Position numbers and translations under genes: made by a program. This document shows positions 745 through 11,954 of a DNA stretch of 11,954 nt, in pieces. Each line of letters opens with the position of its first letter. Within the stretch, counting starts at the first letter, position 1. The notes beneath the pieces were generated by a model that saw nothing but the letters and a program-made list of their open reading frames with translations, was not told the DNA's origin and did no database searches. The stretch comes from Deltaproteobacteria bacterium (GTDB lineage Bacteria; Desulfobacterota_E; Deferrimicrobia; Deferrimicrobiales; Deferrimicrobiaceae). The stretch is from assembly GCA_023489025.1 (NCBI GenBank), contig JAMDCN010000021.1:1-11954 (forward strand). The letters run 5' to 3'.

Positions 745-1216
745 CGTCGTATCGGTCGTGAATATGCAGGAGGTCGACAACGCGGTCAACCAGGCGGTCA
801 AGGAGATCGGCCAGCGGTACGACTTCAAGGGATCGAAGACCGAAGTCACGCTGGACAAGGACGGCATCAAGGTGCTGACCGACGACGAGTTCCGGCTCAA
901 GGCGGTCGTCGACGTCCTTCAGTCGAAGTTCGTGAAGCGGGGGGTCTCCCTCAAGGCCCTCCAGTACGGGAAGGTGGAGCCCGCCTCCGGGGGGCTCGTC
1001 CGCCAGATGATCGCCATCCAGCAGGGGATCTCCAAGGAGAAGGGGAGGGAGATCGTCGCGCTCGTCAAACAGACGAAGCGCAAGGTCCAGTCCCAGATCC
1101 AGGACGAGCAAGTCCGGGTGACCGGGAAGAACATCGACGACCTCCAGGAGGTCATCCAACTGCTGAAGGGGAAGGACCTCGGCGTGGAGATGCAGTTCGT
1201 CAATCTCCGCTCGTAG
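731..1216 (+). CDS. yajQ: YajQ family nucleotide/cyclic di-GMP-binding protein
   Basis: This 161-residue protein has the YajQ/UPF0234 family length and opening ([20 protein letters not shown]) and the conserved [12 protein letters not shown] block at about residues 28-39. Later landmarks are the central [21 protein letters not shown] segment and the closing [13 protein letters not shown] strand ending in QFVNLR. Family members fold as two linked ferredoxin-like domains. Some bind cyclic di-GMP and act with a transcription factor, while others are reported only as nucleotide- or tRNA-binding, so the role here is a family inference. A purine-rich Shine-Dalgarno (about 717-729) precedes the ATG. 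The gene converges with the sulfur operon: its last 17 bp (1200-1216) are shared with the 3' end of the opposite-strand PLP enzyme gene, leaving no room for a separate terminator. Confidence 0.93.
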
Positions 1217-2372
1217 GACCCCCCGCTTTTCGCAAGGCCCGGGAGAGGTCGGCCTGCAGTTCCCCCCGGTTTTCGATTCCCACGGAGAGGCGGACCAGGG
1301 AGGGGGTGAGCCCGACCGCGGCCTGCTCTTCGAGGGGAATGTCCGCGTGGGTCATCGTCGAAGGATGCGTGATGAGCGATTCGACCCCGCCGAGGCTCTC
1401 CGCCAGAAGGATGATTTTCAACGCGCTCAGGAAGGCCGGGACCGCTTTCTCCCGCTTCAGGTCGAACGAGACGATCGAGCCGGCCCCCGAAGCCTGGGAG
1501 AAATGCATCTCTCTCCGGGGGTGGTCCGGCAGGCCCGGGTAATGGATTTTCCCGACGGCGGGGTGTCCCGACAGGAACCTTGCCAGGGCTTCGGCGTTCT
1601 CCTGGGCGCGCGTCACCCGGACGGACAGGGTCTTGATCCCCCGCAGGAGGAGCCAGCAGTCGAACGGGGAGGGGATCGCCCCGATCGCCTTCTGGGCGAA
1701 GGCGATCTTTTCGCCGATCGCCGCGTCCGTCGTGACGACCGCTCCGCCGATCAGGTCGTTGTGCCCTCCCAGGAACTTGGTGGCGCTGTGGACGACCACG
1801 TCGATCCCCAGGCCGAGCGGCCGCTGGAGCAGGGGAGACATGAAGGTGTTGTCCACGACGGTGAGGACCCCTTTTTCCCGGCCGATCCTCGCGGCCCCTT
1901 TCAGGTCGGCGATCTTCATCAGGGGATTCGTCGGCGTCTCGATGAACAGCGCCTTCGTCTTCCCCCGCATCTTTTTCCTCACGGCGATCGGATTACCCAT
2001 GTCCACGTAATCGAAGGAGAGGCCGTAGGGGCGCAGGAGCGTTTCGAACAGGCGGTACGTCCCGCCGTAGAGATCGTCGGAACAGAGAATGTGGTCTCCC
2101 GTCCGGAAGAGGGTCATCAAGGCGGAGATCGCCGCCATCCCGGAGGAAAAGGCGACGGCGCGGGAGCCCCCCTCGAGATCCGCGAGGGCCTTCTCCGCCG
2201 CCTGGCGCGTCGGGTTCTCTCCCCGCGAGTAGTCGAATCCCCGATGCTTCCCGAAGCGCTCGTAACGGTAGATGGCGGCCGTATAGATCGGCACGCTGAC
2301 GGCGCCGTACGCCTTGTCCGCCCCCACTCCCGCCTGCGCGGCGATCGTTTCGACCGTTCGATTCTTTTTCAA
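1200..2372 (-). CDS. Cys/Met-metabolism PLP enzyme (cystathionine gamma-synthase / gamma-lyase type)
   Basis: A full-length (390 aa) fold-type I trans-sulfuration enzyme. Landmarks: YSRGENPTR (residues 48-56, with the Tyr/Arg that reach PLP of the neighbouring subunit), SSGMAAISA (76-84), [11 protein letters not shown] with the stacking Tyr102, [12 protein letters not shown] (145-156), VVDNTF with Asp174 that pairs with the PLP nitrogen, [11 protein letters not shown] with the PLP Lys199, and the C-terminal [12 protein letters not shown] and RLSVGIE blocks. Members may be cystathionine gamma-synthase (MetB), gamma-lyase, beta-lyase (MetC) or O-acyl-homoserine sulfhydrylase, and sequence alone does not decide. 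Position as the last gene of a sulfide-to-cysteine operon favours making cystathionine or homocysteine for methionine. The start is TTG at 2370-2372 with a G-rich ribosome site just upstream, 28 nt after the tusA-like stop. The 3' end overlaps yajQ by 17 bp. Confidence 0.92.
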
Positions 2373-2400
2373 GGGGACCCCCGTATCCGTTTCCGGGACG

Positions 2401-2637
2401 TTACTTTGTCGCTCCAGAGGTTTTTTCCACTTCCAGGAGGAAGATCGTGCCTTCCCGCGACACGTTCGTCACGCGGTGCCCTTCGGTTTTCAGGGAGGAG
2501 ATCACGTTCTTCAGCGCCTCCTCTTTCAGGCGGACGGTGAGCGTCCCCAGCGGGGGGAGCCGTTGCACCCCCATCTTGACCTTCACGAACGTCATGGGGC
2601 AAACGTCCCCGGTGATGTCGAGCAGCGTCGTCGTCAT
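2401..2637 (-). CDS. TusA-like sulfur carrier protein (CPMT variant)
   Basis: A 78-residue protein of the TusA/SirA/YeeD fold. The family active-site Cys13 lies in DVCPMTFVKVK, followed by a helix and the GTLTVRL strand. In TusA proteins this cysteine carries a persulfide that is passed to partners. The canonical motif is CPxP; here the second proline is Thr16 (CPMT), as in TusA-like proteins found beside sulfur-assimilation genes, so tRNA thiolation should not be assumed. The start ATG (2635-2637) overlaps the stop of the sulfite reductase gene by 4 nt (ATGA), so translation is probably coupled. A longer frame running upstream to about 3732 is a shadow of the reductase gene. Inference: it carries sulfane sulfur or receives sulfide near the reductase. 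Confidence 0.88.
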   Translation of the reverse strand: MTTTLLDITGDVCPMTFVKVKMGVQRLPPLGTLTVRLKEEALKNVISSLKTEGHRVTNVSREGTIFLLEVEKTSGATK

Positions 2638-3509
2638 GGCAGCCCCGTCTTCTCCTTCACGCAGGTTTCCAGCGGGGGGAACCCGGTCCTTTGCAGCGTG
2701 TCCCCGAACCGCTCCCCCGGTTTCCCGTGCGCACGGAAGAAATCGAGGACGGCCGTGACCGACGCAACCGCGTCTTCCTGCGATCGCATGACTCCGAGGA
2801 TCCGCTTCCCGAGGGAGGGTCTCCTGCCGAACTTCCCGCCGGCGAAAAGCCGGTACCCCCGGCTCTTTTCCCGCATCCCGCCGGAGGGGCAGGAGGTGAC
2901 GCAGTCTCCGCACCCGATGCAGAGAGCCGGATCGATGACCAGCCTGCCGTCCCCCGCCGACAGCACGATCGCCTTGGTGGGGCATATGGCCTCGCAGATC
3001 CCGCAGAAGTTGCAGCAGGATTCCTCCCACCGCGGCTCGATCCACCCCTTGATCCCCGCGTCGTTTTCCTCGGCCTTCATGCAATTGTTGACGCACCCCG
3101 AGATGCCGACCTTGAACTTGTGCGGCACCGGTTTGCCGTAGAACTTCCGATCGATCTCCTCGGCCAGCGCCGGGGAATCGATCACCCCGGTTGGGCAAAC
3201 GCGGCATCCCTGGCACGCGGTCACGGTGCGGACCGTGGGGCCGCAGACCCCCACGCCGACGCCGGAGGGTGCGAGGAACTCCTTCAGCGCCGCGAGCGAG
3301 TTTTGGGGGACAAACGGGATCTCCACTCCCTGCCGACTGGTCAGGTGGACCTGCCCTCTTCCGTACCGGTCGGCCCCTTCCCGGATCGCCTGGAGCTGCG
3401 GCGTGGCGAGGCGTCCGCCCACCACGTGGAGACGGACCGAGAAGAGCCCGGCCTCCGCCTGGCGCATCATCCCGCCTTTTTTCAGCTCCTTGTAGCCGGC
3501 TTCGTTCAC
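2634..3509 (-). CDS. Small sirohaem/[4Fe-4S] sulfite reductase with two ferredoxin clusters
   Basis: A 291-residue nitrite/sulfite reductase-type protein. Residues 1-75 form the N-terminal half-domain with LTSRQGVEIPFV (56-67), the sirohaem-contacting segment. The catalytic cysteines are C99-x5-C105 (TACQGCRVCPTG) and C139-x3-C143 (GISGCVNNCMKA), which bind the [4Fe-4S] cluster bridged to sirohaem. Two ferredoxin motifs follow: C166xxC169xxC172xxxC176P and C197xxC200xxC203xxxC207P. The chain is about half the length of CysI or DsrA and resembles low-molecular-weight and AsrC-like reductases. Predicted reaction: six-electron reduction of sulfite to sulfide in the cytoplasm; nitrite is a possible alternative substrate. 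The start GTG (3507-3509) overlaps the preceding gene's stop (GTGA). An internal ATG at 3470 also has a purine-rich site but would remove conserved N-terminal residues. Sirohaem would come from the first gene of this operon. Confidence 0.9.
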   Translation of the reverse strand: MNEAGYKELKKGGMMRQAEAGLFSVRLHVVGGRLATPQLQAIREGADRYGRGQVHLTSRQGVEIPFVPQNSLAALKEFLAPSGVGVGVCGPTVRTVTACQGCRVCPTGVIDSPALAEEIDRKFYGKPVPHKFKVGISGCVNNCMKAEENDAGIKGWIEPRWEESCCNFCGICEAICPTKAIVLSAGDGRLVIDPALCIGCGDCVTSCPSGGMREKSRGYRLFAGGKFGRRPSLGKRILGVMRSQEDAVASVTAVLDFFRAHGKPGERFGDTLQRTGFPPLETCVKEKTGLP

Positions 3510-4480
3510 ACCGCGACCTCCACGGCCGGGATGCCGGAATCGGCCACGCGAAGAGCGTACTGGCTGGCATACTTGAAGGCGCTGTCGGGCGAAATGCACA
3601 CCGCCATGGCGTCCGCGGGAAGTCTCTCCTGCAACGCCGCCCAGACGATCGCGCCGGTGGAAGGACCGGCGAGGAGGCTCTCCTCGCGGGCCAGGCGAAT
3701 GGCGGTCTCGTAGGCGGGGGCGTCGGGGACACGCACCGTCTTGTCGATCAACGATTCGTCGAGGATCGAGGGTTTTTTGCTCTCCTCGAAGTTTTTCAGC
3801 CCCGACAGATGGTGCCCCTTTTCGGGTTCGATCGCGATGACGCGGACGTCCGGGTTCTTCTCTTTCAGGCACATCGCGACACCGGTGATCGTTCCGCACG
3901 TCCCGTACCCGGCGAAGAAGTGGGTGACTTTCCCTCCCGTCTGGTCCCAGATCTCCGCGCCGGTCGTCTCGTAATGGGCCCGCACGTTGTCCGGATTTTC
4001 GTACTGGTTCGGCATCACGTAGTGATCCTTCGTCGCCTCTCCGGTGACGAAGCTGCGTGCGAGCGCGATGGCGCCGTCCTTCGGGTGGTCGATCGGGCAC
4101 AGGTCGTCCGGCGTGGGCCAAACCTCCGCGCCGAGGAGCCGAAGCAGGATGATCTTCTCCTCGGGAGCCCCGGAGGGGATCGTGATCGTGCACGGGACGC
4201 CGAGAAGGTTGGAAAGCGCGACGAGGGCGATCCCCGTGTTGCCCGAGGTCGGTTCGACGATCTTCTTCCCCGAAAGCTTCCCGTTCCGCCGCAATCCCTC
4301 CAGGAGGTAACGCGCCGTGCGATCCTTGATCGATCCGAAGGGGTTCATCCATTCGAGCTTGGCGAAGATCTCCCCGCCGCCCGGTTGCGGCAACCGGTTG
4401 AGGCGAACCAGCGGCGTGGGGTTCTCGCGGCTTCCGATCAGTTGCGATATGTCGTCAAACACCCTGCGCGACAGGTTCAT
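3506..4480 (-). CDS. cysM: Cysteine synthase / CysM-CBS family PLP enzyme
   Basis: A 324-residue fold-type II PLP enzyme. Key parts: NPTPLVRLNRL (20-30), MNPFGSIKDR with the PLP Lys52, the EPTSGNTG substrate loop (76-83), the GYGTCGTITG phosphate-binding loop (191-200) and AGPSTGA with Ser274 near the pyridine nitrogen. The family condenses sulfide or thiosulfate with O-acetylserine or O-phosphoserine to give cysteine; cystathionine beta-synthase activity cannot be excluded from sequence. Immediately downstream is the sulfite reductase that would supply sulfide. The ATG at 4478-4480 is preceded by a strong Shine-Dalgarno (GAGGAG) and lies 26 nt inside the end of cysG. Frames reaching further upstream in the same phase lack homology and are cysG shadow. 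Acceptor choice (acetyl versus phosphoserine) is unknown. Confidence 0.9.
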   Translation of the reverse strand: MNLSRRVFDDISQLIGSRENPTPLVRLNRLPQPGGGEIFAKLEWMNPFGSIKDRTARYLLEGLRRNGKLSGKKIVEPTSGNTGIALVALSNLLGVPCTITIPSGAPEEKIILLRLLGAEVWPTPDDLCPIDHPKDGAIALARSFVTGEATKDHYVMPNQYENPDNVRAHYETTGAEIWDQTGGKVTHFFAGYGTCGTITGVAMCLKEKNPDVRVIAIEPEKGHHLSGLKNFEESKKPSILDESLIDKTVRVPDAPAYETAIRLAREESLLAGPSTGAIVWAALQERLPADAMAVCISPDSAFKYASQYALRVADSGIPAVEVAV

Positions 4481-5744
4481 CGGATATCTCCTCGGTGTTT
4501 TCGCATGGAAATAACGCGGCGGTGCGCCCCACGAAGAGGATCGCCGGGGAGCGGATACCCGAATCCAGGGCGATCCGGGACAGGCCGGACAGGATGCCGC
4601 GAACGACCCGCTGCTCCGGCCGGCTCCCGTTCTCCACGATGGCGAACGGGGTTTCCGGCGGGAACCCTGCACCCGCAAGTTCCCTTGCGATGGCCGCGAC
4701 CCGTCCGACACCCATGTAGATGGCGAGGGTCCCGTCCTTCGGCAGGAGGCTCCAGTCGACGGCGCTTCCCCCCTTTTCGTCGGCCTCGTGGCCGGCGATG
4801 AAGGTGACGGAAGAGGATCTGTCGCGGTGCGTCAACGGAACGGCCGCCGCCGCGGCGCAACCCATCGCGGCGGTGATCCCCGGGACGATCTCGAAGGGAA
4901 CCCCCTCGCTTGCGAGGTATTCCGCCTCCTCACCGCCGCGCCCGAATACGAGCGGGTCGCCGGACTTCAACCGGACAACCGATTTTCCTTCCCGCGCCAG
5001 GCGGACCATCGCCTCGTGAATCGCCTTCTGCTTCATCGCCGCCCCGTGGCCGGCGGTTCTTCCCCGCCGGGCGTAGCAGATCTTCGCCGCTTTTGCGGAC
5101 GCCAGGGACAGGATCTCCCCCGGGATCAGGTAGTCGTAAATGACGGCGTCCGCGCTACGCAGCAGTCCCAGCGCGCGCACGGTGAGCAGGTCGGGGTCGC
5201 CCGGCCCGGCGCCGACGATGTAGACCTTCCCCGGCCTCGCCGCGATCCGCTTCCGGCGTCGCCCCCTCTCCAGGCGGACCGAGATCTCCCCCCGGTGATC
5301 CTCGAGGAACTCCCGCAACGCTTTTGCCGCCCCAGGGTGCCTCCCCCCCGTGGAGATCGCCGCCGTGAATTCGGCTCCCCGGGCCACGGCGGGGAGGAGG
5401 AAGGTGCACTCCTCGGGAGAGTCCGCCACGTTGACGGGAATACGGCGCCGGCGGGCCTCGGCCGACACGGTGCGGTTCAGCGCCCGGTCGTGCGTGGCAA
5501 CGAAGACGAGTTCCGCCTTCCGCATCTGGTCGGGGTGGAACGCACCACGGAGGACCGTGAGATCCCCGCGTGCCGCCCGATCCTCCACGGCTGTGGAAAA
5601 CTCCTTTGCGACCACCGTGACCCGGGCCCCGGCGTCCAGCAGCGCATCGATCTTCCGTGCACCCACCGCGCCGGCGCCGACCACGAGGATGCGGGCGTTA
5701 CGGATGTCGTGAAAGACCGGCAGAAACCCTTTTGTCACGTCCAT
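4455..5744 (-). CDS. cysG: Sirohaem synthase: precorrin-2 dehydrogenase/ferrochelatase fused to uroporphyrinogen-III methyltransferase
   Basis: A two-domain protein of 429 aa. Residues about 5-165 are the NAD-dependent precorrin-2 oxidase/ferrochelatase, with the Rossmann loop VVGAGAVGARK (21-31), VNVADSPEECTF (104-115; Asp108 aligns with the catalytic Asp of CysG) and STGGRHPGAAK (131-141; Ser131 corresponds to the regulatory serine). Residues about 173-415 are the SAM-dependent C-methyltransferase: VYIVGAGPGDPDLLTVRA, LKSGDPLVFGRGGEE (259-273) and EIVPGITAA (285-293). Together they turn uroporphyrinogen III into sirohaem, the cofactor of the reductase two genes downstream. I prefer the ATG at 5744, preceded by GAAAGG and beginning just before FLPVFHDIRN, over an ATG at 5810 that would add 22 unconserved residues without a ribosome site. 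First gene of the operon, with promoter and operator candidates upstream. Confidence 0.92.
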   Translation of the reverse strand: MDVTKGFLPVFHDIRNARILVVGAGAVGARKIDALLDAGARVTVVAKEFSTAVEDRAARGDLTVLRGAFHPDQMRKAELVFVATHDRALNRTVSAEARRRRIPVNVADSPEECTFLLPAVARGAEFTAAISTGGRHPGAAKALREFLEDHRGEISVRLERGRRRKRIAARPGKVYIVGAGPGDPDLLTVRALGLLRSADAVIYDYLIPGEILSLASAKAAKICYARRGRTAGHGAAMKQKAIHEAMVRLAREGKSVVRLKSGDPLVFGRGGEEAEYLASEGVPFEIVPGITAAMGCAAAAAVPLTHRDRSSSVTFIAGHEADEKGGSAVDWSLLPKDGTLAIYMGVGRVAAIARELAGAGFPPETPFAIVENGSRPEQRVVRGILSGLSRIALDSGIRSPAILFVGRTAALFPCENTEEISDEPVAQGV

Positions 5745-5821
5745 CGGGAACCTTTCAGGGGGTGCATCCCGTGCCATCCTTCCAGCCTTCCCGTTCATAG
5801 GCATTCCCATTGGTTGATATA

Positions 5822-5845
5822 ATACCTATGGAAATAGTAGGGTAT
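5822..5845. promoter_or_regulatory. Inverted repeat ATACC-N14-GGTAT, candidate operator
   Basis: ATACC at 5822-5826 and GGTAT at 5841-5845 form a perfect 5-bp dyad. It covers the predicted -10 and start site of the sulfur operon, a position suited to repression. AT-rich dyads of this general kind are bound by Rrf2-family regulators (IscR, CymR), some of which control cysteine and Fe-S metabolism. The link to that family is inference. Confidence 0.4.
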
Positions 5846-5899: not shown

Positions 5900-5929
5900 A
5901 GAATAGTCTCTCCGGCTCGATAATATTCT
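5900..5929. promoter_or_regulatory. Tandem palindromes, enhancer site 1 for the sigma-54 activator
   Basis: Two 10-bp near-palindromes: AGAATAGTCT (5900-5909) and ATAATATTCT (5920-5929), 20 bp apart centre to centre. The first is identical to one of the pair at 8216-8247, and the second differs by one base from the other. They lie about 118 and 138 bp upstream of the start predicted from the sigma-54 promoter at 6017-6032, the usual place for enhancer-binding-protein sites. Confidence 0.6.
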
Positions 5930-5984
5930 CCGGTCTCCGCATTCAAAGGGGGGTTCCTCTCTGTTGGTGAGTACGTAACTTGCT

Positions 5985-6000
5985 GATATCATAGGATATC
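5985..6000. repeat. Duplicated GATATC hexamer
   Basis: GATATC occurs at 5985-5990 and 5995-6000, separated by ATAG, between the enhancer site and the sigma-54 promoter. Each copy is itself a palindrome. It could be a binding site for another regulator or simply chance. No IHF consensus is evident here. Confidence 0.25.
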
Positions 6001-6016
6001 CATCCATCCCTCGTAT

Positions 6017-6032
6017 CGGCACATCCGTTGCT
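6017..6032 (+). promoter_or_regulatory. Sigma-54 promoter of the lipoprotein-regulator operon
   Basis: CGGCAC-N5-TTGCT matches the sigma-54 consensus TGGCAC-N5-TTGCW with only the first T changed. GG (6018-6019) and GC (6030-6031) have the required 12-bp offset. Transcription would start near 6043, giving a leader of roughly 219 nt before the gene at 6262. Confidence 0.65.
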
Positions 6033-6043
6033 TATCCGTCCAC

Positions 6044-6100
6044 ATGAATCCGGACATCCTCTTCATCGACGATGACCGCCGGAGCGTGGAGTTGCGCTGA
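6044..6100 (+). pseudogene. Possible relic of a response-regulator N-terminus
   Basis: ATG at 6044 opens an 18-codon frame reading MNPDILFIDDDRRSVELR, then TGA. It resembles the first residues of the regulator encoded at 6807 (MTGRILFIDDDKAGREVAL): ILFIDDD is identical and a VxL follows at similar spacing. There is no ribosome site, and the predicted transcript begins at this ATG, so translation is unlikely. It may be a decayed duplicate of the regulator start, or coincidence. Confidence 0.3.
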
Positions 6101-6261
6101 TCGGCAGATCGGGTGTGGCAGACGCCCAAAGGTGAACGGCGCGTTCACCGTGATGCGGTTCGAACCGGTGAAGTGAATGGGAACGGGAACCGACGTGGCC
6201 ATGGAAAGCGCCGGGTCACGCTGGAGAAGAATGAAGGGCACGCGATAGGAAGGACCGCGCA

Positions 6262-6810
6262 ATGAACAAGACGGAAGTGGAAACGAACCGTAAATGGGCC
6301 CTCTCGCTGATGGTTTATTTTCTGGTCCTGTCATTGGAAGCGTGTGCCCGAGACGGCAGAGTTTCTTTCCCGTTTGATGCCCAGGTCTCCGATCTCGAGG
6401 GGAGGGTGTTGAAACTGGAGACCCTCCGCGGCCGCCCCTTCGTGGCTGTAACGTACGTCCCCTCGATGCCCGATTGTCGTAAGCGGATCGAAAGGTTCGT
6501 CGCCTTGTCGGATTTCTTCAAGGAGGGGGATATCCGGTTTGTCGCGGTGGACATTCGTCCCTCGGAAGCGGAGATGTTTCCCGGGGCGTTTCCGGAATAC
6601 AAGGGAAGCGTCCGGTTTTACAAGGACCGCACCGGGACCGTTGCCCGCATCCTGAAAGTGGATCTTGTCCCTTCGACGTTCTTCGTTTCCTCCGGAGGGA
6701 AGATCATCGAAAGGATCGATTCACTCCGTTCATGGGATTCGGAGGATTTCCGGAACCGGGTAAATAAATTCATTAATAAGGTGAAGGTGCCGGAATGGGA
6801 AAGACGATGA
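6262..6810 (+). CDS. Sco/thioredoxin-fold lipoprotein with a single core cysteine
   Basis: A 182-residue exported protein. Residues 11-27 form a hydrophobic signal ending in a plausible lipobox (LEAC, Cys28), so it is probably anchored to a membrane facing the periplasm. Residues about 35-170 have the redoxin order of strands and helices seen in SCO1/SenC and peroxiredoxin-like proteins: VSDLEGRVLKLETLRGRPFVAVTYV, a helix after PDCRKRIERF, FVAVDIRPSE and the cis-proline segment VPSTFFV (Pro137). In Sco proteins the first helix begins with CxxxC; here it is S68-MPD-C72, so a redox disulfide cannot form within this motif. It may bind a ligand or sense rather than reduce. It has a good Shine-Dalgarno (AGGAAGGA, 6247-6254). 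It overlaps the regulator start by 4 nt, suggesting joint function. Confidence 0.7.
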   Translation: MNKTEVETNRKWALSLMVYFLVLSLEACARDGRVSFPFDAQVSDLEGRVLKLETLRGRPFVAVTYVPSMPDCRKRIERFVALSDFFKEGDIRFVAVDIRPSEAEMFPGAFPEYKGSVRFYKDRTGTVARILKVDLVPSTFFVSSGGKIIERIDSLRSWDSEDFRNRVNKFINKVKVPEWERR

Positions 6811-8177
6811 CGGGACGCATTCTCTTCATCGACGACGACAAGGCGGGCCGTGAGGTGGCTCTCTTCAACCTCCGCCGGGCCGGTTACGAGATTACGCCGG
6901 CTGGGGACGGGCAGGAGGGGCTCTCTTTTTTCTCTCCGGAGAAGTTCGACCTCGTCATCACGGACGTCAAGATGCCGGGGATCCCGGGGATCGAGGTCTT
7001 ACGGCGCATCAAGAAGCAGGCTCCCGAGATCCCGGTCCTCGTCATCACGGCCTTCGGCAACGTGGAGACGGCCGTCGAGGCGATGAAGAATGGCGCGTAC
7101 GACTTCATCGGGAAACCCTTCCAGCGGGACCAGCTTCTCCTCACGGTCGAAAGGGCCCTCGAACGCCGCCGACTGACCACAGAGGTGCGGGAACTTCGGA
7201 TCCGGGCCAGCGGCGTGGAGCGGGAGATCGTCGGGTCCTCCACCGCCATGAAGCGGCTGCTCGAGATTGCCGACAGGGTATCCAGGACCGACGCCGGCGT
7301 CCTCATCACCGGCGAGAGCGGCACAGGAAAAGAAGTGATCGCCCGGCGGATTCATGTCCACTCCCACAGGGCCGAAGGCCCCTTCGTGGCGGTGAATTGC
7401 GCCGCCATCCCGGGGGAGCTCCTGGAGTCCGAGCTCTTCGGCCACGCCAAGGGCGCCTTCACGGGGGCGGTCAAGGATCGGCTCGGCCGGTTTCGGCAGG
7501 CGCAGGGCGGTACGCTGTTTCTCGACGAAATCGGGGAGATCCCGCTCTCCCTACAGGCCAAACTCCTTCGGGCCCTCCAGGAGAAGGTGGTGGATGCGGT
7601 AGGCGGGGACGCGCCCATTCCTGTGGCTGTGCGGATCGTCGCCGCGACGAACAAGGACCTGCAGAGCCGGATCCGGGCAGGAAGTTTTCGGGAGGACCTC
7701 TACTATCGCCTCAACGTGGTCGAGGTCCACGTCCCCTCGTTGCGGGAACGGCCGGAAGACATTCCCGAACTTGTCTTGCACTTCATCGGGGAACTGGCGG
7801 AGGGCCGGGATCTCACGGTGCCGCCCCGCGTGATGGAGGAACTGAATCGCCGCCCTTGGCCCGGCAACGTCCGGGAACTGAAAAACGCGTGCGAGCGGAT
7901 GGTGATCCTCTGCCAAGGCAATGAAATTTCCCTGGAGGATCTCCCGGCTCCTTCCGACAGGTTGCGGCCGGCAAAAGCGCCGTTTTTCGGCAACGGCGGG
8001 GGTCTCCCGTCTCTTCCGCCGGAGGGGCTCTCACTGGTGGACCTGGAGAAGAAGGTGATCGAGAGCGTCTTGAGGATGAAGAACGGGAACATGACGCAGG
8101 CGGCCGCCTTCCTGCGCATCCCCAGACATGTCCTGATCTACCGGCTCGAAAAGTACGGGATCCGCCGCGAGACGTAA
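6807..8177 (+). CDS. NtrC-family sigma-54-dependent response regulator (orphan)
   Basis: The 456-residue protein has three domains. The receiver (1-120) carries the acidic cluster D9-D11, phosphoacceptor Asp53 (LVITDVKMPG), Thr81 and Lys103. The AAA+ domain (about 140-380) has Walker A GESGTGKE (169-176), the sigma-54-contacting GAFTGA loop (216-221), Walker B GGTLFLDE (234-241), REDLYYRLNV and WPGNVREL (351-358). The Fis-type helix-turn-helix is at about 427-449 (MTQAAAFLRIPRHVLIYRLEKY). All residues needed for phosphorylation, ATP hydrolysis and sigma-54 activation are present. The preferred ATG at 6807 forms an ATGA overlap with the upstream lipoprotein gene and has GGGAAAG before it; an ATG at 6795 would add four residues. 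No histidine kinase lies in the window. The same tandem palindrome plus sigma-54 promoter lies upstream of its own operon and of the next one, so autoregulation and control of the cytochrome operon are inferred. Confidence 0.95.
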   Translation: MTGRILFIDDDKAGREVALFNLRRAGYEITPAGDGQEGLSFFSPEKFDLVITDVKMPGIPGIEVLRRIKKQAPEIPVLVITAFGNVETAVEAMKNGAYDFIGKPFQRDQLLLTVERALERRRLTTEVRELRIRASGVEREIVGSSTAMKRLLEIADRVSRTDAGVLITGESGTGKEVIARRIHVHSHRAEGPFVAVNCAAIPGELLESELFGHAKGAFTGAVKDRLGRFRQAQGGTLFLDEIGEIPLSLQAKLLRALQEKVVDAVGGDAPIPVAVRIVAATNKDLQSRIRAGSFREDLYYRLNVVEVHVPSLRERPEDIPELVLHFIGELAEGRDLTVPPRVMEELNRRPWPGNVRELKNACERMVILCQGNEISLEDLPAPSDRLRPAKAPFFGNGGGLPSLPPEGLSLVDLEKKVIESVLRMKNGNMTQAAAFLRIPRHVLIYRLEKYGIRRET

Positions 8178-8215
8178 ATGGGGATTTCCGGACGTTCGAT
8201 TGTTTTAAAACTTGG

Positions 8216-8247
8216 AGAATAGTCTTTGCTGCCTTAAAGAATATTCT
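8216..8247. promoter_or_regulatory. Tandem palindromes, enhancer site 2 for the sigma-54 activator
   Basis: AGAATAGTCT (8216-8225) and the perfect palindrome AGAATATTCT (8238-8247, extending to AAGAATATTCTT at 8237-8248), 22 bp apart centre to centre. The first copy is identical to the one at 5900. The sites lie about 107 and 130 bp upstream of the start predicted from the promoter at 8324-8339, the same geometry as site 1. Confidence 0.62.
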
Positions 8248-8323
8248 TCATCCCTCCTTGATCGTCAGGCGTATCCAAAGCTTAACTATCCGAAATTACA
8301 GGTCAAATAGAAAGTTGTTGCGA

Positions 8324-8339
8324 TGGCATGCGTTGTGCT
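8324..8339 (+). promoter_or_regulatory. Sigma-54 promoter of the ferredoxin-porin-cytochrome operon
   Basis: TGGCAT-N5-GTGCT differs from consensus TGGCAC-N5-TTGCW at two positions and keeps the invariant GG (8325-8326) and GC (8337-8338) with 12-bp offset. Predicted start is near 8350. This excludes an ATG at 8323 as the start of the ferredoxin gene. A weaker alternative (GG 8268, GC 8280) fits poorly elsewhere. Confidence 0.55.
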
Positions 8340-8442
8340 GTGTTTTTCCGCCGAGAGGTTCGCAGGCGAAACGCGAAGGCGGACCCAACCGGGAATGCAC
8401 TCGCTTCGTCCCCGGAAGGCCAATTCGGCGCGGGGTGTCTGC

Positions 8443-9078
8443 ATGTCAGCGGTCAACGCACGAACCGATGCAACAAACGCGCATGTTGAAGAAGTCCCGC
8501 AGATCCTCATTGAAAAATGCGAAAGCATACTCGTCGGCGATGCCCGGCAATGCCTCGGTTGCAGGGCATGCGTCAAGGCTTGCAGAAAGGCGGGCGGATC
8601 CATGCTCGCGGGCCGCTGGCTTACGTGCGGCACCGTCAAGATAGCGCCCACCTGTCGCACCTGTGAACGTCCGAAGTGCCTCGTTGCCTGCAAGCGGAAC
8701 GCCATCCGAAAAGCGAACAGGCGGGTCCTCATCGACGAGAAAGCGTGCGTCAAGTGCGGACGGTGCGTCAAGGCGTGCCCCTTCGGGCTGATACACATGT
8801 TCGCAACGGGCGAGAGCGGGGCGAAATCCTCCTTCCCATGCGAACCGGGAAAGCCGGCTGCGGGGCGTCTTCCAAAAGAAATCTCAAAATGCGACCAGTG
8901 CGCCGATCGCGGATCTCCCGCGTGCGTCCACGAGTGTCCGACCGGAACGCTACGTTTTATTGATTATGAGAAGTTCCAACTACTGGTGGAAGCCCAGCGC
9001 GTGCGGATGCGGGAGACGACCGGCGGTCACGGACACCCTATCCCGAGCGGAGAGGTTGCCCTTTGCAGATTCCCATAA
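8443..9078 (+). CDS. Four-cluster [4Fe-4S] ferredoxin-type electron-transfer protein
   Basis: The 211-residue protein has 16 cysteines in the pattern of CooF/HycB/DmsB-type electron-transfer subunits: C37xxC40xxC43xxxC47, C71xxC74x4C79xxxC83, C102xxC105xxC108xxxC112P and C150xxC153x7C161xxxC165P, enough for four [4Fe-4S] clusters. There is no signal peptide, so it probably works in the cytoplasm or at its membrane face, passing electrons between a soluble donor and a membrane partner not seen here. I chose ATG 8443 (GGGG at 8432-8435 upstream) because the predicted transcript starts near 8350. ATG 8395 is possible; ATG 8323 would lie upstream of the transcript. The residues before 8443 lack family similarity. 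Cys26, Cys62, Cys133 and Cys208 are extra. First gene of the operon that continues with the barrel and cytochrome. Confidence 0.85.
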   Translation: MSAVNARTDATNAHVEEVPQILIEKCESILVGDARQCLGCRACVKACRKAGGSMLAGRWLTCGTVKIAPTCRTCERPKCLVACKRNAIRKANRRVLIDEKACVKCGRCVKACPFGLIHMFATGESGAKSSFPCEPGKPAAGRLPKEISKCDQCADRGSPACVHECPTGTLRFIDYEKFQLLVEAQRVRMRETTGGHGHPIPSGEVALCRFP

Positions 9079-9172: not shown

Positions 9173-10480
9173 ATGTTGCCGGTACTGAGCGCACTATTGA
9201 TCGCCACGACTCTGAACAGCGCTGCCATTATTGATCCGGCCGCCCCCCGATTCGATACCAGGGGGTCGTTGACTTTGTCGCTGGACTCGTCGAAGGGGGT
9301 TTTCTCGGATCGTTCTTTTACGAGTATCGGTTCCTCCCTGTCGTACGAAGGTTCCGCGGGGATCGAGGGATTCGCTCTCAGGGGGCGGTGGCGTTACACT
9401 CCCGATCAGGATCTTGCCCGGAATATTCCCTCCTATTACTTCACCGACGCCTGGTACAGATGGAGCATCTCCCCGCGAGGCGACACTCTCACGGGGGGAA
9501 GACAGCGGCTTGCCGAGGCCGCGGGAGAGTTGTTCGACGGCGTCGCGGTCGATGTACGCCCGAGCGCAGGAGTCGTTTTGGGCGCCTTCTTGGGGTTCCG
9601 GCCGGACCCGTTCGATTTCCGGTTCCGGGAGGATGCGTGGTCGACGGGGGTTTATTCTTCCTGGGCGGGAACCGGAAGCCGGGCGTCTTTTTCCCGGCAA
9701 GCCCTCGTCTTCAATTCGCTCCATGGGAGCCCGGACCGGACCTTTTTGACATGGGACGCGGGGGGCTCCTTATCGGATACGGCCTTCTGGCGTCAATTCG
9801 TGATCCTGGACCTCGACTCCAAGGACCGCCCCTTCACCCTTACGAATTACTCCCTGCAGGCGGGAGGCCAGCCCGCGAGGGACCTCCGCGCCACATGGCA
9901 GGCCAACGTCTACCGCAACATCTTCTACAACGTGGGGTCGGCAGGCATTCCCACGGACACGTCGGCGCTCCACTCGACGTCCGTGACTCTCGCCTACACG
10001 TTCATAAGAAGCCTGATCAACACGGGTTCCGCGGCGTTCAGCCATCGGGATCTCGATCACCGGAAATCCTTCTCCTATTCGGACGCGGTGGATTTCCTCG
10101 ATCTGCTGGGAAGCGGGGTGAACGCAAACCTCACCTATTCCGGCGCCGACTACTACAACGCGTATCTGGACTCTTTTTCGGCGGCCCTTTCACGCCAGAT
10201 TGGGGGGCGCGCCCAGATGACGCTCTCTTCGAGTTACCAGAGAAATATCGCGGATACCTTCGGCGACAAGAGCAAGTCCACCTTTTGGTTGTCCTCCCTG
10301 GGAGGGAGCTACATCGTGAACGACAGATACGACGTCGCCTGCAATTTCCAGTACCAGGAGGCGCATCTGAACAACGGCCCGACCGAGGGTCTGGGCTTTA
10401 TCCGGGATCCCCAGCTTGTCGGGTCCTCCAGGCACGGAGCGGGATACAACCTGTTCCTTTCTCTACTGCGCAGATTTTAG
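9173..10480 (+). CDS. Outer-membrane beta-barrel protein (porin of a putative electron conduit)
   Basis: A 435-residue protein beginning with a short hydrophobic segment (MLPVLSALLIATTLNSA) that can serve as a signal peptide, though it lacks the usual basic start. The rest alternates polar and hydrophobic residues with many Tyr, Phe, Trp, Ser and Gly. It has repeated strand-turn patterns and ends in LFLSLLRRF, with the C-terminal Phe recognised by the barrel-assembly machinery. No haem or Cys motif is present. I cannot assign a named porin family. Setting between a ferredoxin and a multihaem cytochrome suggests the barrel of a porin-cytochrome complex that moves electrons across the outer membrane; a transport porin is the alternative. 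The start is uncertain: the frame is open upstream to 8960 but overlaps the ferredoxin gene, and the ribosome site before 9173 is weak. It ends 9 nt before the next gene. Confidence 0.7.
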   Translation: MLPVLSALLIATTLNSAAIIDPAAPRFDTRGSLTLSLDSSKGVFSDRSFTSIGSSLSYEGSAGIEGFALRGRWRYTPDQDLARNIPSYYFTDAWYRWSISPRGDTLTGGRQRLAEAAGELFDGVAVDVRPSAGVVLGAFLGFRPDPFDFRFREDAWSTGVYSSWAGTGSRASFSRQALVFNSLHGSPDRTFLTWDAGGSLSDTAFWRQFVILDLDSKDRPFTLTNYSLQAGGQPARDLRATWQANVYRNIFYNVGSAGIPTDTSALHSTSVTLAYTFIRSLINTGSAAFSHRDLDHRKSFSYSDAVDFLDLLGSGVNANLTYSGADYYNAYLDSFSAALSRQIGGRAQMTLSSSYQRNIADTFGDKSKSTFWLSSLGGSYIVNDRYDVACNFQYQEAHLNNGPTEGLGFIRDPQLVGSSRHGAGYNLFLSLLRRF

Positions 10481-10489
10481 GGAGGACGC

Positions 10490-11050
10490 ATGGAAAAACC
10501 GTACCGCGCAAGATATCTCAACCTGTGGGTTTTCCCTTTCCTGCTTCTCTTCGCCGCCAGCGCATTCGGCCGAAGCTACGTCGGAGGCGTGGCGTACACC
10601 CGCGACGGGCAGCGCATCGAGGTGCAGCAATTCCTCGATCCTCTGAAGAAAGACAATTTCATCATCGGCCAGTCGGAAAACAAACAGGTCAGAGTTCCTG
10701 TCGGGGAGCTCAAGGAGCTGAACCTCCTGACATCGGGGGTCAATTACATCTTCCAGCATTCGAAACTGGTCCAGGAGACCGGGACCGTTTCGCTGGTGTA
10801 CCGCGACGGCAGGGCCGCCATCCTGACGAACGCCTATTTCGAAAAGGGATCGCTTCTCTACGTCGTCTTGACGGCCAAAGGAAAACGAGAGGAAAGGAAG
10901 GCCCCTTTCAAGAGTCTGTTGAAAATACAGTTCGAAACAACCGTCGGCACCGTCCGGGTATGTCCTCTCGATAAGGCCGTGTTTCCTGATGATTTCGTCT
11001 TTTGCCCTTACCATGGCGTACCGCTCGTCTGGGGGTCTCCAAAACCATGA
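10490..11050 (+). CDS. Exported protein of unknown function with a C-terminal two-cysteine motif
   Basis: A 186-residue protein with a basic start (MEKPYRARYLN) and a hydrophobic stretch (about 11-25) ending near ASAFG, a likely cleaved signal peptide, placing it in the periplasm. The body is rich in short strands of the form IEVQQFLDPLKKDNFIIGQ and VRVPVGELKELNLL. Near the end, VCPLDKAVFPDDFVFCPYHG (157-176) has Cys158 and Cys172 in a context resembling half of a zinc-ribbon motif (CPxC...FCPxxGxPL), but the second cysteine of each pair is missing. Function is unknown. A strong ribosome site (GGGAGG) follows the barrel stop by a few bases, and its TGA overlaps the Shine-Dalgarno of the cytochrome gene, so it is translated with its neighbours. 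It may be an assembly or accessory factor of the barrel-cytochrome complex (inference). Confidence 0.7.
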   Translation: MEKPYRARYLNLWVFPFLLLFAASAFGRSYVGGVAYTRDGQRIEVQQFLDPLKKDNFIIGQSENKQVRVPVGELKELNLLTSGVNYIFQHSKLVQETGTVSLVYRDGRAAILTNAYFEKGSLLYVVLTAKGKREERKAPFKSLLKIQFETTVGTVRVCPLDKAVFPDDFVFCPYHGVPLVWGSPKP

Positions 11051-11060
11051 GGAGGAGCAA

Positions 11061-11939
11061 ATGACCCTTTTCCACCGGATCCTTGCGTCCCTGTTCATCT
11101 TCCTGGTCTCGGCGGTTCCCTCGCCGGTCCGTTCGGAAACCTTATCCCCCACCTCCCTGATCAGCCCCGGCCCGCTGACCGCGCTTCACGCGAAGTATGA
11201 CGATACCTGCCTGGCCTGTCATGAGCTGGGGAAAGGGGTGCCGGACCGGAAATGCCTGGATTGTCACAAGGAGATCGAGGAAAGGCGCCTTGCGAAAAAA
11301 GGGTTCCACGCGCAGGTGAAGGGGAAATGCTTCGAATGTCACACCGACCATAAAGGGAAAGGATATGACATCGTAAAAAGGGAGCAGCTGAAGCCGCCCG
11401 TCTTCGACCATCAAGCCACAGGATTCCCACGCGCAGGCAAACACGCCCAACTGGAGTGCCGGACCTGCCATACGACCAGAAGTTACCTGAAACTCCAGCC
11501 TGCTTGCGCTTCCTGTCACCAGGATCCCCACAACAAGGCTTTTAAAGACGCCCCCTGCACCGATTGTCACTCCTTCGAGGCGTGGAAGCCGCCTGTCGCT
11601 TTCCGTCACGAGAAGGCGAAGTTCCGGCTGGAGGGTCCGCACAAGGACGCTCCCTGCAGCGCCTGCCACGCGGCGGGGGTCTACCGGGGCCGCAAGCACG
11701 GCACGTGCGCCGAGTGCCACAAGGACCCGCACGACAAGCAGTTCGAGCCGACGGCCTGCTCGGAGTGCCACACCGTGAACGGGGAGTGGACTCCGGACGC
11801 CTTCCGTCACGAGAAGGCGAAGTTCCGGCGGGAGGGTCCGCACAAGGACGCGCCCTGCAGCGCCTGCCACGCGGCGGGGATCTACCGGGGCCGCAAGCAC
11901 GACACGTGCGCCGAGTGCCACAAGGAACCGCACGACAAG
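11061..11939 (+). CDS. Multihaem c-type cytochrome, at least 11 haems (3' truncated)
   Basis: ATG at 11061, preceded by GGAGGAG, opens a frame with no stop before the window end. Residues 1-25 are a signal peptide (MTLFHRILASLFIFLVSAVP...). Of 293 genuine residues, eleven CXXCH haem sites are present, beginning at Cys50, 65, 90, 133, 149, 166, 199, 216, 233, 266 and 283. Several extra histidines (for example the FRH and GPH repeats) can be distal ligands. From about residue 114 the protein consists of units of about 67 residues with three haems each: one diverged (114-179) and two nearly identical (180-246 and 247 onward). It would lie in the periplasm or on the cell surface as an electron wire paired with the barrel; no lipobox is seen. 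The minus-strand frame over this region is a shadow. Codons after 11939 are adapter sequence. Confidence 0.93.
11598..11939 (+). repeat. 201-bp tandem repeat in the cytochrome gene
   Basis: Segment 11598-11738 (141 bp) recurs at 11799-11939 with six mismatches by my count, a period of 201 bp (67 codons, three haem sites). The DNA is visibly GC-richer than the start of the gene. The contig ends within the second copy, so the true copy number is unknown. Confidence 0.9.
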
Positions 11940-11954
11940 AGATCGGAAGAGCGT
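11940..11954 (+). other. Sequencing-adapter remnant (not genomic)
   Basis: The last 15 bases read AGATCGGAAGAGCGT, the start of the common Illumina adapter. The first repeat copy continues after CACGACAAG with CAGTTCGAGCCG, whereas here the sequence switches abruptly to the adapter. It should be trimmed, and the five codons it would add to the cytochrome (RSEER) are artefactual. Confidence 0.92.

Follow-up and report, generated by a model that had tools for sequence, protein, structure and literature searches.

A sigma-54 operator system of probable copper/silver-stress type in a Deferrimicrobiaceae contig, with an adjacent putative electron-transfer operon

Contig JAMDCN010000021.1 of a Deltaproteobacteria bacterium (Deferrimicrobiaceae; assembly GCA_023489025.1) was analysed over its full 11,954 nucleotides (the window). 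It encodes a response regulator of the NtrC family, flanked by two pairs of 10-base-pair (bp) operator sites, each followed by a sigma-54 promoter. On balance we favour reading this arrangement as a metal-stress circuit of the copper/silver type that here also faces an electron-transfer operon. The regulatory prediction as a whole is strongly supported by comparison with relatives, which bears on the sequence of the sites, their geometry, their recurrence, their linkage to the regulator, with which they also co-occur, and the efflux nature of many targets. We further infer contact between protein and DNA, phosphorylation by a kinase encoded elsewhere, a copper or silver signal and a role for the electron-transfer operon. 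A previous reading of the same DNA, made from its letters alone (the sequence-only reading), had proposed a two-promoter regulon of an orphan regulator devoted to electron export.

Results

Operator pairs and promoters around the regulator gene

The proposed circuit comprises the following elements, with promoter distances measured from the end of the pair to the -24 element.

5900..5929, no strand: operator pair 1, AGAATAGTCT (5900-5909) and ATAATATTCT (5920-5929), gap 10, 20 bp from start to start
6017..6032, plus strand: sigma-54 promoter 1, CGGCACATCCGTTGCT (CGGCAC-N5-TTGCT), 88 bp after pair 1
6044..6100, plus strand: 18-codon frame closed by a stop and similar to the beginning of the regulator gene (the stump), MNPDILFIDDDRRSVELR
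6795..8177, plus strand: NtrC-family response regulator with receiver, AAA+ domain bearing GAFTGA, and HTH_8 (Pfam receiver, Sigma54_activat and HTH_8)
8216..8247, no strand: operator pair 2, AGAATAGTCT (8216-8225) and AGAATATTCT (8238-8247), gap 12, 22 bp from start to start
8324..8339, plus strand: sigma-54 promoter 2, TGGCATGCGTTGTGCT (TGGCAT-N5-GTGCT), 77 bp after pair 2

All coordinates that the sequence-only reading had given for the paired sites and the promoters were confirmed, and the GG-to-GC spacing that it had called exact is 12 bp in both elements. Its word palindrome holds in full for AGAATATTCT, the only perfect one, while AGAATAGTCT and ATAATATTCT fit a palindrome at 8 of their 10 positions. 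Pair 2 begins 38 bp past the regulator stop codon. Both promoters are among three tied top sigma-54 matches on either strand of the window, the third of which (8704, minus strand) is intragenic; one weaker match lies at 9870. Transcription is predicted to start near 6043 from promoter 1 and near 8350 from promoter 2.

With at most one mismatch, AGAATANTCT occurs in the window only at these four operator places, giving 8 matches when both strands are counted. Shuffling gave a mean of 0.68 and a largest count of 6, with 0 of 200 shuffles reaching 8, and the whole gap-12 pair has one window match against a shuffle mean of 0.01. The earlier judgement that chance was unlikely is borne out by these controls.

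The protein encoded between the sites is, as had been claimed, a GAFTGA-positive enhancer-binding protein. It carries the phospho-acceptor Asp57 in its receiver, GAFTGA at residue 220 of its AAA+ domain and a Fis-type helix-turn-helix, all expected of the NtrC family, as are upstream operators and a -24/-12 promoter with GG and GC 12 bp apart. No histidine kinase was found among the window genes that could be named, and the term orphan is therefore valid for this contig and not beyond it. Of 120 listed relatives of the regulator, those with names come mostly from metagenome-assembled genomes (MAGs) of Deltaproteobacteria, one of them a Candidatus Deferrimicrobiaceae; the closest among those listed are about 88-93% identical.

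Recurrence of the operator pair in relatives

A class sample of 26 genomes was reached via the MAG of locus L001 (G001), and the regulator was detected at E<=1e-180 in 18 of them. The pair was searched with up to 3 mismatches, with the pattern read backwards as the control. Gap 12 gave 40 matches in 18 genomes (control 0), gap 11 gave 12 matches in 6 genomes (control 0) and gap 10 gave 9 matches in 9 genomes (control 1), so that pooling gaps 10-12 sets 61 matches against 1. At gap 17 there were 3 matches in 3 genomes (control 0). In G024, one of these relatives, 7 pairs share a single spacing, which does not support two promoters as the size of the regulon.

An unfocused regulator scan had listed 80 NtrC loci (1.29 Mb; L001 among them), nearly all with other NtrC proteins, which serve as an unplanned control set. 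They hold 8 pair-like matches scoring at least 18. A sigma-54 element at 60-105 bp is absent from all 8, and the sole match scoring at least 26 is at L002. The operator is not described in the open-licence literature searched. Excerpts of PMC4641369, PMC3333781 and PMC12316311 contain no mention of copper, nor does that of PMC4641369 mention heavy metal; an excerpt of PMC2725144 mentions neither efflux, heavy metal nor silver, copper not being among the terms looked for.

Distance between pair and promoter

Geometry was examined in 55 fetched stretches (L106-L115, L158-L202) together with the window, with pairs counted more strictly (at most 2 mismatches in the left arm and 3 in total, same-flank copies merged). 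This gave 59 pairs, two of them the window's, and 52 of the 59 have a sigma-54 element scoring at least 11 at 66-92 bp downstream. When the window is excluded, 50 of 57 pairs have such an element and 48 of 57 have it at 74-79 or 87-92 bp, compared with 725 of 21,790 random intergenic positions (3.3%) in the same stretches. Because the presence of a site or of a regulator decided which stretches were fetched, the density of sites in them is biased, but the sigma-54 fraction was not so chosen. The weight matrix was built from the same 52 pairs and its scores on them are therefore circular.

The window promoters, at 88 and 77 bp, represent one of each distance class. The two classes differ by about 13 bp, which is not a whole helical turn. 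Seven pairs are without a qualifying element: L107:5919, L168:6099, L173:5818, L188:5431, L191:1095, L193:6061 and L194:5772. At L191:1095 there is an element at 101 bp, intragenic, and L107:5919 and L168:6099 have lower-scoring elements at 90 and 88 bp. One of the 50 positives, L181:5535, sits within a called gene. Genes in fetched loci were called with a home-made codon score, and in L211 and L223-L227 by longest open frames, which are unreliable in L225 and L226 (70% G+C).

Co-occurrence of site and regulator

A phylum sample of 395 genomes, 17 of them from the class, was screened for the regulator at E<=1e-130, scoring the 4 best first-look candidates per genome. The regulator was present in 40 genomes, the gap-12 pair (at most 2 mismatches) in 24 (backward control, 3 genomes) and both together in 16 (p 2e-12; this and the tests below use draft genomes and ignore kinship). 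Outside the class, the pair occurred in 8 of 26 genomes with the regulator versus 7 of 352 without it (Fisher p 8e-7). A sigma-54 element scoring at least 11 lay at 60-105 bp in 5 of those 8 (L205, L206, L208, L211, L214) and in 0 of those 7. The check that the sequence-only reading had proposed, a search of relatives for pairs with sigma-54 promoters and for co-occurrence with the regulator, was thus run, and co-occurrence was found.

Genes predicted to be controlled in relatives

Of the 50 promoters in relatives, 24 precede operons that carry genes for efflux or detoxification of the copper/silver type, defined as at least one of FtrD-like, MacB-type permease/ATPase, TolC/CusC, CusB, CusA, CopA, multicopper oxidase and cupredoxin-CusF. 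One representative per family exceeded curated cut-offs for FtrD-like, MacB, FtsX, HlyD_D23, HMBD, CusF and plastocyanin, as did representatives of multicopper oxidase, CusA/CzcA and copper P-type ATPase. Given these target families, our preferred reading of the regulon is a metal response of the copper/silver type, for which copper or silver would be the signal.

Similar neighbourhoods occur at greater distance. In G215 (L227), outside the class, the genes run from a kinase to a 53%-identical regulator, the pair comes directly past the regulator stop, and CusC-, CusB-, CusA- and CusF-like genes follow; the promoter there lies at 102 bp. At L002 the pair directly follows a 48%-identical regulator, ahead of FtrD- and MacB-like genes. 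Short, apparently exported proteins are often the first after the operator (L183:5796-6146, L106:2819-3106 and others, a cluster of 12 members); this family ends in a shared motif like GGVVYR-GID, and the one member tested had no Pfam match.

Two types of regulator

In a tree of 144 rows (quick method, midpoint root), the regulators of the window, L106, L107 and L108 and, weakly, L184 (support 70) split from a sister group that has about one member per genome. A pair lies upstream of the window-type regulator in four cases (the window, L106, L107, L184). Directly 3' of the regulator stop codon, a pair is found in the window, L107, L108 and also L169. Two partial genes absent from the tree (L171 at 492-4; L169), 77-78% identical, have pairs both upstream and downstream. 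L109 has an upstream pair, but its regulator falls elsewhere in the tree on a long branch. Together with the co-occurrence, these pairs beside regulators lend good comparative support to the earlier proposal that the regulator would control its own operon and the one downstream.

Sister-type genes are arranged differently: 0 of 18, some near a contig end, have a pair within 1500 bp upstream. A histidine kinase follows the gene in all five loci examined (L111, L168, L171, L173, L114), and after the kinase comes an Nramp transporter in three of them (L111 by Pfam, L168 and L171 by a similar start) and a ZnuA-like set in the other two (L173 by Pfam, L114 by a similar gene order). The window-type L184 also has a kinase downstream. 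Beside operators at L168:1008-1523 and L109:2040-2555 are 171-amino-acid proteins about 56-61% like the regulator N-terminus, the former a receiver domain alone by Pfam; they are perhaps phosphate sinks or decoys.

The stump behind promoter 1 may record an older arrangement. Its 18 codons open with MNPDILFIDDD before the stop, and it begins 13 nucleotides past the -12 C of promoter 1. The complete regulators in L107 and L109 have their ATG 14 nucleotides past the -12 C; at the corresponding spot L171 (a partial gene) has GTG, and neither L106 nor L168 has a start there. It seems that the regulator was formerly transcribed straight from promoter 1, and that the following gene came between them later.

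6262..6810, plus strand: thioredoxin-fold (AhpC/Redoxin-like) protein, E about 2.5e-5, just under curated cut-offs

This protein, perhaps a lipoprotein, sits between promoter 1 and the regulator, and no CxxC or CxxxC pair was found in it.

The putative electron-transfer operon behind promoter 2

Promoter 2 is followed by four genes, none of them an efflux gene.

8443..9078, plus strand: polyferredoxin-type iron-sulfur (Fe-S) protein, start at 8443 or, in the same frame, 8395; the listed start at 8323 overlaps the promoter
9173..10480, plus strand: predicted beta-barrel protein, all-beta in AlphaFold with about 20 strands (mean predicted local distance difference test score, pLDDT, 47.5)
10490..11050, plus strand: 186-amino-acid protein, apparently exported, of no family
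11061..11954, plus strand: multihaem c-type cytochrome with 11 CxxCH in 298 residues, truncated by the contig end

The barrel protein has no Pfam or NCBIfam match. A sequence search found 13 relatives besides itself (7,995 candidates scored), and its profile had 4 distant matches in the 395 phylum genomes. Two of these four were examined, and both follow multi-CxxCH proteins (47 in L223, 24 in L224), which fits a barrel-cytochrome unit; at L223:6192-9467 (G371) the frame with 47 CxxCH has 1091 codons' worth of amino acids and precedes the distant barrel relative. The electron-transfer operon would be a target known so far from this contig alone.

Remainder of the window

The window divides into a left end, a minus-strand block, and to the right of the latter the plus-strand block that holds both operator pairs, both promoters, the regulator and the electron-transfer genes.

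Left end of the 11,954-base contig: what we take from the sequence to be an ABC-ATPase-like fragment and then a YajQ-like gene
1200-5810, minus strand: block resembling sulfur assimilation, with PF01053 and siroheme-synthase-type domains at its two ends and inner genes named by eye

The sequence TAGGGTAT occurs at 5838-5845, upstream of the sulfur-assimilation block, and in two tandem copies at L106:2500-2516, upstream of a solute-binding-protein transporter; it is perhaps a second, sulfur-linked operator. At 11940-11954 the contig terminates in agatcggaagagcgt, presumably the start of an Illumina adapter, and the final bases of the cytochrome frame probably do not belong to the genome. The window has no match in Rfam.

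Discussion

In the mechanism that we propose, a kinase encoded elsewhere would phosphorylate the regulator, a dimer of which would then bind at each 10-bp palindrome. The two dimers of a pair, spaced by about two turns of the helix, would seed the AAA+ ring, and the ring would open sigma-54 polymerase at a promoter about 75-92 bp downstream. Through promoter 1 the regulator would drive its own gene in a positive feedback; through promoter 2 it would drive the adjacent operon of ferredoxin, barrel, 186-amino-acid protein and multihaem cytochrome. A soft-metal signal could in this way turn on a unit for electron transfer in the cell envelope. That the placing of a copper/silver-stress operator before an envelope electron conduit means that toxic soft metals are met by electron export, instead of or besides efflux, is a more tentative idea, which we hold to be rather improbable though worth stating; the export might serve extracellular metal reduction or relieve poisoned Fe-S electron flow.

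Several observations weigh against the metal-stress circuit. On the side of the targets, 23 of the 50 promoters precede genes outside the core efflux families (regulators, kinases, small proteins, unknowns), and for 3 no gene was called within 400 nucleotides; the copper P-type ATPase passes the cadmium-family cut-off as well, so that the assignment of the metal is a tentative one. In no relative examined does the electron-transfer operon stand under this operator, and at E<=1e-5 none of the 26 class genomes gave a match to the barrel profile, in a search run without a positive control. L002 has no sigma-54 match at threshold, and in its genome, G406, backward-control matches are as many as real ones. 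Within the class the association of site and regulator is weak (17, 3, 2, 4; p 0.028): G006, G014 and G019 carry the regulator and no counted site, and G003 and G013 a site with no regulator found. In that count G015 and G017 scored positive on partial regulators (L179 in one case), and an intragenic hit in G026 was left out. Finally, G004 (2.32-Mb contig) has sites with a regulator of the sister type only (E<=1e-125), which suggests that the sister type probably serves the same operators.

This last point feeds the most serious of the alternatives, in which the sister-type regulator, with its kinase downstream, mainly serves the sites and the window type is a subordinate copy with an amplifying or modulating role. 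The recognition-helix regions are nearly alike in the two types, and the kinase found after the sister type in five loci adds to the case; yet no sister-type gene has an upstream pair, while window-type genes adjoin pairs. We consider this alternative possible, with the odds against it, and it can hold alongside the metal-stress circuit. The version of the sequence-only reading, a regulator dedicated to electron export with no metal-stress link, draws on the ferredoxin-type protein, barrel and multihaem cytochrome behind promoter 2 and on the multi-CxxCH proteins ahead of both distant barrels examined. As a general role it does not survive the comparison well, with efflux-type operons behind 24 of 50 promoters and the barrel, in the search just described, absent from the class genomes, and we regard it as unlikely. 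A chance resemblance, or an unrelated AT-rich repeat, could borrow from the abundance of sigma-54-like matches, since 45% of random intergenic positions have one within about 245 bp on either side. The backward-pattern and gap-17 controls, the fixed promoter distances, the co-occurrence with the regulator and the 80 listed NtrC loci, whose pair-like matches have no sigma-54 element, make this scarcely credible.

Now that the operator sequence, the fixed geometry of its promoters and the family of its regulator are available for the whole regulon, its targets can be listed directly from sequence, in a host class for which draft genomes seem to be the main source of knowledge. Small exported proteins that belong to no known family would thereby be drawn into the metal response. 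Should the operon behind promoter 2 answer to metal stress, one switch would govern both metal detoxification and extracellular electron transfer.

Comparison with known systems

In the porin-cytochrome electron conduits of metal-reducing bacteria, a barrel is encoded with a multihaem cytochrome. The window likewise encodes a predicted barrel with such a cytochrome; it differs in that its barrel matches no Pfam or NCBIfam family, its cytochrome is incomplete and the unit is known from genes alone. The CusSR-CusCFBA system of Escherichia coli shares CusC, CusB, CusA and CusF with the relatives' target genes, but CusR belongs to the OmpR family and acts at sigma-70 promoters, in contrast to the NtrC-family regulator and sigma-54 promoters here. 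ZraSR of E. coli is a metal-responsive NtrC-family system that works with sigma-54. It is autoregulated, according to an excerpt of PMC12316311. The window regulator scores 388 against a cut-off of 760 with the NCBIfam model of ZraR, which rules out that it is ZraR, and the relatives' targets differ in being of the Cus/Cop type.

By analogy, the nearest published system that we found appears to be CorSR with the curA operon of Myxococcus xanthus. As described in an excerpt of PMC3707914, a sigma-54-dependent regulator of the NtrC type there controls copper genes and its own operon, with cupredoxin, multicopper oxidase and CopA among the copper targets and four putative sigma-54 promoters. CorSR has its kinase gene inside the operon, whereas none was identified on the window contig, and the gap-12 operator (at most 3 mismatches, the only gap searched) occurs in 0 of 4 myxobacterial genomes, M. 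xanthus included. The likeness to CorR lies at the level of system description. At that level, a sigma-54 regulator of the NtrC type governs its own operon there and would do so here; copper-handling genes stand under the same operators at 24 of the relatives' 50 promoters and at neither of this contig's.

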